From: Carnobacterium viridans
Lineage (GTDB): Bacteria; Bacillota; Bacilli; Lactobacillales; Carnobacteriaceae
Reading direction: 5' to 3'
NCBI RefSeq assembly: GCF_900102725.1
Contig: NZ_FNJW01000008.1
Span: 1,674,001 to 1,738,000, forward strand
DNA: 64,000 nucleotides
Positions 16,901 through 21,484 of the stretch are shown piece by piece. Position 1 is the first letter of the stretch; each line of letters opens with the position of its first letter. The position numbers and the translations under genes were made by a program. Under the pieces are notes generated by a model. It worked only from the letters and a program-made list of their open reading frames with translations, made no database searches and had not been told where the DNA came from.

Positions 16901-16955
16901 GTGGATGTAAACCATTGGTTGCTAATTGTAAACTAATGGATGTGTTACTTTTGGA
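16901..16955 (-). promoter_or_regulatory. Direct-repeat element, copy B
   Basis: TGTAAAC occurs at 16906-16912 and 16927-16933, 21 bases apart, flanked by the same ccattggttgctaa and tgttactttt blocks as copies A and C. On the minus strand it lies upstream of the 108-residue membrane protein gene, with TATAAT (ggttataat, about 16864-16869) between them. Confidence 0.65.
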
Positions 16956-17012
16956 AGCTTTTTAAAAAACTAGAGCCCTTTTTACATTCAAGATATCATT
17001 CCAAGTATGAAA

Positions 17013-17375
17013 TTATAACTCTTCTATAGGGAGGTTCATACCTTTCCATCCCTCAAGAGCTCCTGACAGTTCGTATGCTTCAAAACCGGCAGATAACAGA
17101 ATAAGAAGAGCTTCTTTCCCTAGTATAGTTCCACCTGTCCAATCATATACAACGTAAGTTTTGCTTTTATCTAATGTATCCAATTGACTCTTTAAGTCTT
17201 TAGCTGGGATTTCAATTGAGCCTAAAATTTTATCTTTTTTTATTGCTGAGGGAGCATTTCGTACATCTAATACGATATAAGGAGAGTTTTCTTCTTGCGT
17301 TGAATTTAACACTGTGTGATGGCTAATATAAAGACTTAAAAAGGTTTCTAATAATTCTATTTTATTTCTTTTCAT
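17013..17375 (-). CDS. Rhodanese-like protein lacking the catalytic cysteine
   Basis: 120 residues forming one rhodanese domain. YIVLDVRNAPSAIKKDKILGSIEIPA gives the CH2A-type region and LLSAGFEAYELSGALEGWKG the family C terminus. The active-site loop reads YDWTGGTILGKEAL, so the usual cysteine is Asp, and the whole protein contains no cysteine. It cannot act as a thiosulfate sulfurtransferase and may instead bind a ligand or partner. Its start overlaps the end of the marR gene by 14 bases, so translation is coupled. The close partnership suggests a sensory or accessory role beside the regulator. Confidence 0.8.
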   Translation of the reverse strand: MKRNKIELLETFLSLYISHHTVLNSTQEENSPYIVLDVRNAPSAIKKDKILGSIEIPAKDLKSQLDTLDKSKTYVVYDWTGGTILGKEALLILLSAGFEAYELSGALEGWKGMNLPIEEL

Positions 17376-17904
17376 TACTATTTAGCTCCATTTCATTTTG
17401 CATTTTCTTCGTTCCTAATTTTACTTTGTTTAACAATCGAACAAGTTCTGTTTGTTCTGCTGTATCCAATGTTGACAATAGTATTGATATAGCATGATAA
17501 TTATTAGGTAAAAACCTTTCCAGTAACGCTTTCCCTTCAGTTGTCAACTGAATTATGACAACTCTTTTATCACGCGATGAAGATTTCTTAATGATCCACT
17601 GACTTCTTTCCAAACCTTTGATAACTTTCGTAATAGTTGCACGAGTAGACCCTAACTTTTCAGATAAGATTGAAGGTAGAAGCTGATGACTAGGTTCATT
17701 GTAAAGAAACATAAGGATAATAAACTTGGTTTCTGTTAATCCGTAACGTTCAAGTAAACTATCATATTGTTTTTGCATTTCTCTATAGGTCCATTGAATA
17801 TCTAAAAACAAAGTAACAAAGGACTCATTTGCTTCTGGAAAGGTTTTTTTCAGTGTTTCTAATCGTTCTTTAGTAGGTCTGTCAGTGAAATTATATTCAA
17901 CCAA
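17362..17904 (-). CDS. MarR-family transcriptional regulator
   Basis: 180 residues with a winged helix-turn-helix at about 50-120 (TETKFIILMFLYNEP, LSEKLGSTRATITKVIKGLERSQWI, and a wing SSRDKRVVIIQLTTEGK). The start is TTG at 17904, six to seven bases from GGGAG. It sits 12 bases downstream of a perfect 14-bp inverted repeat and should repress its own operon with the rhodanese-like gene. No cysteines or metal-binding pattern for a known signal stand out; the ligand is unknown. Confidence 0.88.
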   Translation of the reverse strand: MVEYNFTDRPTKERLETLKKTFPEANESFVTLFLDIQWTYREMQKQYDSLLERYGLTETKFIILMFLYNEPSHQLLPSILSEKLGSTRATITKVIKGLERSQWIIKKSSSRDKRVVIIQLTTEGKALLERFLPNNYHAISILLSTLDTAEQTELVRLLNKVKLGTKKMQNEMELNSNEKK

Positions 17905-17916
17905 AATAATCTCCCT

Positions 17917-17948
17917 CTCAAAGTAATTAGCTGGCTAATTACTTTGAG
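17917..17948. promoter_or_regulatory. Perfect inverted repeat, likely MarR operator
   Basis: ctcaaagtaattag (17917-17930) and its exact complement (17935-17948) flank a ctgg spacer. It lies immediately upstream of the MarR start and overlaps the expected promoter, as is typical of autoregulated MarR operators. Confidence 0.75.
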
Positions 17949-18114
17949 TTTACATTACTTTTTTTAAGTTGTCAATTACAGATAATCTTAAACATTAGAG
18001 TACTTTACTATAGTAATTTAAGTACCTAGAAAAGCAATTTTTAATTCAATCACTCAACAAGATAGTATGAATGAACTATTATTTTCTTAATTACCCAATA
18101 TAAATAACAATAAA

Positions 18115-18140
18115 AAGAACCTTGTTTTAATAAGGTTCTT
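18115..18140 (-). terminator. Terminator for minus-strand transcription
   Basis: aagaacctt (18115-18123) pairs with aaggttctt (18132-18140), and on the minus strand a T5 tract follows. It lies directly after a 21-codon frame (18139-18204, MISSDRYKEEEFLKALKKIVN) that has no clear ribosome binding site; this could be a tiny gene, a gene remnant or the end of a small RNA. The rest of 17949-18288 shows no gene. Confidence 0.5.
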
Positions 18141-18288
18141 AATTCACTATTTTTTTTAGTGCTTTTAAAAATTCTTCTTCTTTATACCGATCACTACTAA
18201 TCATTTTCTTTTACTGTTTTTTAACTAAAGAAGTTTCTCTTAGTCTCAGTATTTGGTTTATCTAGTGTAACTAATGTTTATTTATGCT

Positions 18289-18317
18289 TTGAGTATATAA
18301 ATACTTCTCTGTATATA
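18289..18317 (+). promoter_or_regulatory. Promoter of the rsbQ-like operon
   Basis: TTGAGT (18289-18294) and TATATA (18312-18317) are 17 bases apart, about 48 bases before the proposed ATA start. Confidence 0.5.
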
Positions 18318-18364
18318 GTATGATTGAAGCTAGAAATAAGTGATATTGTGAGAGGTGGATTACT

Positions 18365-19165
18365 ATAAACGTCGATTTTTATAAGCGTCATAATCTAAAC
18401 ATTATTGGTTCTGGAAAAAAAATAATTTTATTTATCCATGGGTTTGCTTCAAGTCAACAAACATGGCAATGGATTACGCCAGCATTTGAGCGTACACATA
18501 CTCTGATTCTAGTAGATTTAGTCGGTTCAGGAAATTCAGATTTACAAGCATACAAGGAAGAACGCTATTCTTCGTTAATGGGGCATGCAGATGATTTGAT
18601 TGCACTTTGTGATGCATTAGAGCTGCAAGAGATTACTATTTTTGGGCATTCTGTTGGTGGAACTATTGGACTTTTACTAGCAAAAAAACGACCTGATTTA
18701 GTGCAACAAGTGATAATGATTGGTGCATCACCAAGATATTTAAATGATTTACCGAGTTATCATGGAGGATTTGAACGCGAAGATGTTGCTCAAATTCTTG
18801 AGATGATGGAACTTAATTATGTAGGATGGGCAAGTCATCTGTCTTCGGTTGCATTGCCTGCTTCTGAAGGTGAAAGTCAAACAAAATATGTAGAAGCAAG
18901 CTTCTTATCTAGCAATCCTAAAGTTACATATCAATTTCTTGAAATGACATTGTTAGTAGATTACCGTGATATTCTCAAAGAAGTTACAACAGACACTGTG
19001 ATTATCCAGTGTTCAGATGATAGCTTTGTACCTATAGAAGTAGCTGAATATATGGTCAATGAAATTAAAGGTAGTACTTTACATATTTTATCTTCGAAAG
19101 GACATTATCCGCATGTTAGCAATCCCGAAGAAACGGTAAAAGCCATTAAGCTTAGTTTAAAATAG
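18365..19165 (+). CDS. rsbQ: RsbQ-like alpha/beta hydrolase
   Basis: Related to B. subtilis RsbQ, which works with the PAS domain of RsbP in energy-stress sensing. The first ATG-initiated frame (18578) would cut off a third of the fold; the frame is open further up to ATA at 18365, eight bases after AGGTGG, giving INVDFYKRHNLNIIGSGKK and 266 residues (RsbQ is about 269). From there the triad falls at Ser96 (GHSVGG), Asp219 (QCSDDS) and His247 (KGHYPH), the same numbers I know for RsbQ. RYLNDLPSYHGGFE and ILEMMELNYVGWA are close RsbQ-type lid segments. The non-canonical ATA start is odd and may limit expression. The PAS-GGDEF gene follows by 11 bases. Confidence 0.88.
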   Translation: MNVDFYKRHNLNIIGSGKKIILFIHGFASSQQTWQWITPAFERTHTLILVDLVGSGNSDLQAYKEERYSSLMGHADDLIALCDALELQEITIFGHSVGGTIGLLLAKKRPDLVQQVIMIGASPRYLNDLPSYHGGFEREDVAQILEMMELNYVGWASHLSSVALPASEGESQTKYVEASFLSSNPKVTYQFLEMTLLVDYRDILKEVTTDTVIIQCSDDSFVPIEVAEYMVNEIKGSTLHILSSKGHYPHVSNPEETVKAIKLSLK

Positions 19166-19176
19166 GAGGTTGTATA

Positions 19177-20106
19177 ATGTATGATAAAATTTGGCAGCAG
19201 GCAATTATCCCTCTTGTGACACTTAATTTTGGTGGGGATATCCTTGCAGTCAATGATACATTTGTAAAATTAGTTGGCTATTCAGCTGATGAACTAGTTG
19301 GTCAACATTTTGAAATGGTTATGGATAATGGAGCCAGATTTTTCTTCAACTCTATGCTTTATCCAAAACTAAGGATGGAAAAAGAGATTCAAGAAATCTA
19401 TATTTCAATTCGAACAAGTACACAAGAAGTAAGGTATGTGATGTTTAATGCACAAATAACTGAACCAGAGCATACGATCATTTGTTTTATTGTACCTGTT
19501 GCTCAACGGATGGAGTATATGAAGGAAATTCGTTCCATTAATAAAGCTCTTGAAGAGACCTTAAAAGAAAAAACACGCCTACATGAAGAGCTCATAATTT
19601 CGAATCAAACTTTGAAGCATTATGCAGAAAAAGATTGGTTAACTAAGTTGTATAATAGAAGAGTTTTTTTAATGAAAATAGAGAAGATATATGAAGAATA
19701 CCAACAGGGTGGTCGTGTATTTTCAATTTGTATTCTTGATGTGGATAATTTTAAGCAAGTTAATGATCAATATGGTCATCATGTTGGTGATGAAGTATTA
19801 ATTGGCCTAGCTAATGAAATGAGAGGGTTCTTTGATTCCTCATGTACGTTAGCACGGTTTGGAGGCGAAGAATTCATTATCCTTTTACCGGATCAAGATA
19901 AGACTGCAGCTTATAAAAAAGCCGATCTTTTTCGCAAGAGAGTGAAAAGTCAGAGATGGCAGGGAGTTTCTATTACAATTAGTTTGGGCGTTAATATGGT
20001 TTCTTATCCAAGCGAAATTAGCGATATCATTGTTGGGGCTGATCGTTCTCTTTATAAAGCAAAAAGAAATGGTCGTGATCAAGTAGTACTGGTAGATGAT
20101 CTTTAA
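19177..20106 (+). CDS. PAS-GGDEF diguanylate cyclase with RsbP-like input domain
   Basis: 309 residues, no membrane segment. The N-terminal PAS domain (about 1-115; LAVNDTFVKLVGYSADELVGQ) carries an RFFFNSMLYPKL...EIQEIYISIRT stretch that strongly recalls the RsbP PAS domain. A coiled-coil linker (about 115-150) leads to a GGDEF domain (about 150-305) with DWLTKLYNRR, DVDNFKQVND, and active-site GGEEF at 229-233, so cyclase activity is expected. The RxxD inhibition site is absent (DSSC at that place). ATG follows TAGGAGG. The pairing with the RsbQ-like gene suggests a hydrolase-dependent sensor making c-di-GMP. Confidence 0.9.
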   Translation: MYDKIWQQAIIPLVTLNFGGDILAVNDTFVKLVGYSADELVGQHFEMVMDNGARFFFNSMLYPKLRMEKEIQEIYISIRTSTQEVRYVMFNAQITEPEHTIICFIVPVAQRMEYMKEIRSINKALEETLKEKTRLHEELIISNQTLKHYAEKDWLTKLYNRRVFLMKIEKIYEEYQQGGRVFSICILDVDNFKQVNDQYGHHVGDEVLIGLANEMRGFFDSSCTLARFGGEEFIILLPDQDKTAAYKKADLFRKRVKSQRWQGVSITISLGVNMVSYPSEISDIIVGADRSLYKAKRNGRDQVVLVDDL

Positions 20107-20158
20107 AAATAGGAGCTCTTCGTTAAATAATTTGATTAATTAAATTTAATACCTAGAT

Positions 20159-20195
20159 AAAACAACGTAACTGAGGCATCTTACGTTGTTTTAAA
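20159..20195. terminator. Terminator after the PAS-GGDEF gene
   Basis: aaaacaacgtaa (20159-20170) pairs with ttacgttgtttt (20181-20192). T-rich tails exist on both strands, so it may serve both directions. Confidence 0.8.
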
Positions 20196-20203
20196 GGTAT
20201 AAA

Positions 20204-21484
<1,281 letters not shown>

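Follow-up and report, generated by a model that had tools for sequence, protein, structure and literature searches.

The adjacency of an alpha/beta hydrolase gene and a gene for a PAS-coiled coil-GGDEF protein in Carnobacterium viridans raises the question of whether the two form a signalling module, whether such a module has been described before, and in what state it is found in this strain. Both genes lie in the stretch of 64,000 nucleotides that was analysed as a whole (hereafter the window) and were found where the initial annotation had placed them, the hydrolase stop and the ATG of the PAS-GGDEF gene being separated by 11 bases. The features that the text refers to are as follows.

18350..18358, plus strand: Shine-Dalgarno-like stretch GAGAGGTGG ahead of the hydrolase (sequence, predicted 16S pairing)
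18365..19165, plus strand: RsbQ-type alpha/beta hydrolase, 266 codons and stop (phmmer, Foldseek)
18365..18367, plus strand: ATA codon at the hydrolase start position (ATG at the aligned codon in the related loci L003 and L005)
18650-18652, 19019-19021 and 19103-19105, plus strand: codons of the hydrolase triad S96, D219 and H247, numbered from 18365
19177..20106, plus strand: PAS-coiled coil-GGDEF protein, 309 aa (Pfam PAS 1.4e-7, GGDEF 1e-35)
19177..19512, plus strand: RsbP-type PAS domain, residues 1-112 (Pfam, alignment A1, AlphaFold model with mean pLDDT 92)
19498..19629, plus strand: long signalling helix spanning residues 108-151 (AlphaFold model, by DSSP)
19630..20082, plus strand: GGDEF domain with GGEEF at 19861-19875, RxxD absent (Pfam, alignment, motif check)

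The hydrolase and its PAS-GGDEF neighbour

The best match of the hydrolase among solved structures is B. subtilis RsbQ (1wom; 238.5 bits, E 7.2e-70 by phmmer), followed by Olei00960 (196.6 bits) and then by the plant D14/KAI2 proteins. Esterases outside this group reach 59.2 bits at best (E 4e-15 or weaker), so that the protein is nearer to RsbQ than to generic esterases, as had been supposed. Its predicted model (pLDDT 92.9) also has 1wom as best Foldseek match (TM 0.93), the alignment with RsbQ over residues 8-263 is free of indels, and the proposed triad S96/D219/H247, counted from 18365, is invariant in all 37 aligned hydrolases. It is a divergent RsbQ, scoring 238.5 bits against RsbQ versus 307 bits for a locus of the same family (L004). 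No named hydrolase family in NCBIfam rose above its cut-off among the best 25 of 34 matches, and the hydrolases of plasmid records were all distant (865 of 865 under 60% identity). With plant D14/KAI2 it shares the fold and the catalytic triad (rmsd 1.3-2.4 Å among the matches listed), but in a midpoint-rooted tree that included three plant receptors it falls on the bacterial RsbQ side with 100/100 support, the program warning that long branches meet there. An F-box partner is not known from bacteria.

The partner model (pLDDT 92, pTM 0.61) comprises a PAS fold, the helix of residues 108-151 and a GGDEF domain, their mutual arrangement being uncertain because of the pTM value. The first Foldseek match was a LOV-activated diguanylate cyclase (8c05), which likewise consists of a PAS-type domain, a helix and a GGDEF domain but lacks a hydrolase partner, and since the TM score over the whole chain is just 0.49 its domain arrangement is not matched by that of the window protein. 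LOV domains bind flavin. The PAS stretch RFFFNSMLYPKL...EIYISIRT noted in the initial annotation is present; the domain closes with ...IICFIVPVAQRMEYMKEIR and has no DIT motif at its end. The GGEEF site is intact within a GGDEF fold (Pfam 1e-35; Foldseek matches to cyclases), and RxxD is missing at the inhibition-site position, as had been noted; the same is true of 12 of the 35 GGDEF partners checked, including 7 of 7 checked in the order.

Nine residues of the RsbP PAS domain tested in 2011 (C10, L13, L48, Q53, F55, C56, Y59, E72 and P86) correspond in the window to I, V, M, R, F, F, M, E and Y, respectively. The numbering was verified by eye against L097, which has a hydrolase with 88.7% identity to RsbQ. 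The kind of residue is retained at six positions, with F55 and E72 unchanged, and not at the other three (C10 to I, Y59 to M and P86 to Y). In B. subtilis RsbP, the Y59A substitution lowers RsbQ binding (PMC3183031, in part).

Co-occurrence of the two genes and the published module

Conservation of the pair is the evidence that bears most directly on whether the genes belong together. Across 395 sampled genomes of the order, the hydrolase is found in 8 (E 1e-40 or better), and an independent search placed an RsbP-type PAS domain in the same 8; the genes are adjacent in all 8, every partner being a PAS-GGDEF protein (that of L009 with a frame break). At the level of the class, 48 of 398 sampled genomes hold 52 hydrolase places, all of which were inspected, and directly downstream of 47 is an RsbP-like PAS gene, in 38 cases with GGDEF as read from translations. 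Thirty of the 52 places (L002, L010-L038) have PAS-GGDEF partners, which include one with a frame break (L038) and one running off the locus past its GGEEF site (L036), while the other 22 (L090-L111) comprise 8 further PAS-GGDEF partners read from translations, 3 PAS-phosphatases (L097, L106, L107), 2 PAS-histidine kinases (L102, L104), 4 PAS proteins with a coil and no recognised output domain (L090, L095, L096, L109) and 5 STAS proteins with no PAS gene (L103, L105, L108, L110, L111). The neighbourhood is thus conserved in relatives. Neither of the two refuting outcomes named in the initial annotation that can be judged by computation, a hydrolase no nearer to RsbQ than to generic esterases and the lack of a conserved neighbourhood, is borne out.

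Pfam found GGDEF in all 21 members of alignment A1. Its check of 10 of the 14 non-GGDEF partners (all except L096, L105, L107 and L108) confirmed the output domain in 7 of the 7 that have one, namely SpoIIE in L097 and L106, a kinase in L102 and L104, and STAS in L103, L110 and L111. As to the coil-only partners, the PAS matches of L090 and L109 stayed below the cut-off and L095 had none; in L102 and L104 Pfam detected the second PAS domain only, the first having been read by eye. Around other alpha/beta hydrolases of the same family, no PAS or GGDEF match lay within about 1.5 kb in any of 27 control loci, these being the ones with loci among the 34 places listed. The five STAS genes directly follow RsbQ-type hydrolases of one genus (g137), and we take their products to be RsbR-like. 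A STAS output is not among the three outputs of the 2011 paper (PMC3183031, in part), and the RsbQ passages of PMC9847131 and PMC7522486 make no mention of one next to RsbQ. The two histidine kinase partners occur in the window's own class, probably Gram-positive, and the available text of the 2011 paper gives kinases for Gram-negatives.

Whether the pairing had been described before was a question left by the initial annotation, and the answer is in print: Nadezhdin, Brody and Price reported 45 adjacent RsbQ/RsbP-PAS pairs in 2011 (PMC3183031, in part), with phosphatase, kinase and diguanylate cyclase outputs, the cyclases occurring in both Gram lineages, Gram-positives included. That work also showed an F55-dependent RsbQ-RsbP contact in B. 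subtilis and gave the module's ligand as unknown; none is named in the available text of later papers. PMC12143880 (in part) again describes coupling to GGDEF, and presents a predicted 2RsbP/2RsbQ complex. We found no report of a tested cyclase-linked RsbQ pair in the accessible portion of the open literature on RsbQ/RsbP with GGDEF. With the cyclase-output modules of the 2011 paper (in part) the window pair shares gene order, an RsbQ-type hydrolase, an N-terminal RsbP-type PAS domain without a DIT motif, a helical linker and a GGDEF output.

We consider it probable that the pair is a member of this published sensing module, with a diguanylate cyclase as output. The kinship with RsbQ and the RsbP PAS domain and the cyclase output, both proposed in the initial annotation, hold on sequence, fold, trees and identical occurrence in the sampled order. 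The module reading is further backed by purifying selection on the hydrolase frame (dN/dS about 0.09 versus L003), dS being 1.7 and near saturation. Points against it are the three differing PAS residues, the divergence of the hydrolase from RsbQ, and the ATA start described below. That the two genes are mere neighbours, or are co-transcribed for some other reason and do not interact, would fit the five class loci whose RsbQ-type hydrolase lacks an adjacent PAS gene; it is very hard to reconcile with the identical occurrence pattern across 395 genomes, a gene order conserved in two separate lineages, the 0 of 27 control loci and the interaction shown in B. subtilis (PMC3183031, in part), and we regard it as highly improbable.

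From the B. subtilis RsbQ-RsbP work we infer that the hydrolase may gate the cyclase. By analogy, it would bind or convert a small hydrophobic molecule and touch the F-alpha helix of the PAS domain, and the change would be relayed through the coiled coil so as to align two GGDEF domains, whereupon c-di-GMP would be made. The B. subtilis pair, which serves the energy-stress branch of sigma-B, and the window pair are alike in an indel-free hydrolase with the same triad and in a related PAS domain, whereas the output is GGDEF in the window and a PPM phosphatase in B. subtilis, and the window genome has no SigBFG match above the cut-off (the control was above it in 1 of 14). A sigma-B output in this genome looks unlikely. 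Within the module reading, the hydrolase could itself perceive the ligand, as D14/KAI2 do in plants, so that binding is enough to alter the PAS contact and no product is delivered (Model 2 of the 2011 paper). The common fold, D14/KAI2 being next in similarity, and the retained triad speak for such a receptor, but an enzyme that makes or delivers the PAS ligand (Model 1) fits equally well, and we hold the receptor version to be possible while leaning slightly away from it. For the module as a whole, the search for a ligand would be easier with such a small pair, read out simply as c-di-GMP in a genome with few GGDEF and EAL proteins, than within the sigma-B network.

Output history, start codon and lineage

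The initial annotation had the input domain "now" driving GGDEF, a switch from phosphatase to cyclase that may be the wrong way round. GGDEF is the output at 38 of the 52 class places, and in a 48-row tree, built from 46 loci, RsbQ and a plant KAI2 as outgroup after removal of L006 and 12 near-identical rows, the hydrolases with phosphatase partners, RsbQ included, form a starred group nested in a larger starred group in which kinase, coil-only and a single GGDEF partner also occur; at least 5 output changes are needed. This suggests that GGDEF is the older output in the class and the phosphatase a nested minority, with a root that rests on one long plant branch and a sample of one genome per species. 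The survey likewise suggests that outputs in the class are more commonly cyclases than phosphatases.

The hydrolase start is where this strain departs from its relatives. The hydrolase frame has an upstream stop at 18341, is open from 18344 to 19165, and contains no ATG, GTG or TTG between that stop and 18578; a start at 18578 would lose residues 1-71, the conserved HGF stretch among them. The codon at 18365, on which the initial annotation does not comment, is ATA, 7 bases after GAGGTG, and predicted pairing with an assumed 16S 3' end is -11.3 kcal/mol for the hydrolase leader, close to the -11.4 of the PAS-GGDEF gene. In the first set of loci, 35 of the 36 other hydrolases have an ATG at the aligned position or no more than two codons from it; the remaining one (L006), its frame cut by a stop further in, likewise reads ATG at the aligned position. 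Because of the aligned ATG in relatives, the ATA is most simply read as a G-to-A start-codon change or a sequence error. The hydrolase in this strain probably starts at ATA, with reduced production, and the start codon leaves its production in doubt. The ATA is the single feature that distinguishes this copy of the module, also from the 2011 cyclase-output modules (PMC3183031, in part).

A module decaying in this strain, its hydrolase largely silenced by the change from ATG to ATA and its PAS-GGDEF protein left partnerless, has some appeal: both sister loci (L003, L005) keep the ATG, no other common in-frame start occurs before 18578, three more of the 37 loci in the first set show visible damage (L006, L009, L038), and five other searched genomes of the genus have no hydrolase. 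Against this stand an otherwise intact hydrolase reading frame, a dN about equal to L005 (0.221) and L003 (0.216), the strong Shine-Dalgarno stretch, and a report that in S. aureus AUA starts drive reporter expression at about 10% of the AUG level, with one instance of up to 30% (PMC13009471, in part). We judge decay unlikely, and keep the cyclase-output module as the preferred reading. The three broken copies, in which a stop interrupts the hydrolase (L006) or a frame break the PAS-GGDEF gene (L009, L038), could reflect decay or sequence error.

The window's lineage is distinct in another way. The window locus (L002), L003 and L005 (families f1, f1 and f2) form a fully supported clade with a long stem in both the hydrolase tree (computed without L006) and the PAS-GGDEF tree (without L009), and the other order members, of which each tree includes four of five, group together elsewhere. 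From the two separate tree positions, acquisition of the module by the order seems to have happened two or more times. Unlike the 2011 cyclase-output modules (PMC3183031, in part), the clade no longer has the PCG signature (C10) in its PAS domain and has Y59 and P86 changed. In all three of its members, 19 of 102 conserved hydrolase residues are replaced, conserved meaning shared by 90% or more of 33 other hydrolases; the replacement counts left out L006 for the hydrolase and L009 for the partner, L038 being outside the partner alignment. The PAS domain changed more than the GGDEF domain (7 of 22 versus 4 of 45, p = 0.03, uncorrected for three tests), and the hydrolase did not differ significantly from GGDEF (p = 0.22). 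Pocket remodelling was tried as well: 7 of 24 conserved binding-site positions, mapped by eye to the D14 binding-site list in the available text of PMC3436726, are replaced (p = 0.11), and no enrichment is claimed. That this lineage re-tuned its input side (hydrolase and PAS contact residues) to another ligand while keeping the cyclase, and that hydrolase dose is in addition low here through the AUA start, perhaps tied to nutrient or initiation-factor state, is a compound reading that we consider quite unlikely.

Genomic surroundings

Two gene pairs, MarR-rhodanese and RsbQ-PAS-GGDEF, occupy the interval between the sulphate permease and formaldehyde dehydrogenase genes (window 16955-20253). 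The relative G013 retains the flanking genes with other genes between them, and in two others (G010, G011) they are adjacent with the order rearranged; the comparison covered these three relatives. The pair is thus located in a variable site of the genus. Recent foreign origin was considered on composition and set aside: the pair has G+C contents of 35.2 and 34.6%, versus a mean of 36.5 (sd 2.4) for 30 ORFs, and being near the other genes it makes composition uninformative on origin. Genes similar to the pair's neighbours occur on a Vagococcus plasmid, and formaldehyde dehydrogenase and fghA genes 78% identical to those of the window are found on a Klebsiella grimontii plasmid (CP079755.1, H17), possibly as contamination. 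A second formaldehyde dehydrogenase copy (G000:C8:1375925-1377037, L084) is 90% identical, with one TAA in the matched span, and copies in three other genomes of the genus were likewise flagged with TAA.

The genome encodes three GGDEF proteins, of which L041 is degenerate at the signature and L040 adjoins the sole EAL gene found, so that two of the GGDEF proteins look intact and a single EAL protein accompanies them. A search of the genome for PilZ domains gave none (the control matched in 5 of 14), and a search for the c-di-GMP-I riboswitch gave no match in the genome, the control also having matched nowhere. A partial SpoIIE-type phosphatase match is present at G000:C8:133869-134102 (L114; 25.5 bits versus a cut-off of 25). 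Elsewhere in the window, a T-box leader lies at 1922-2138 on the minus strand (Rfam RF00230, 114.6 bits), and an inverted repeat at 17917-17948, whose stem has 14 pairs and which lies on the promoter side of MarR, is a possible operator or terminator.
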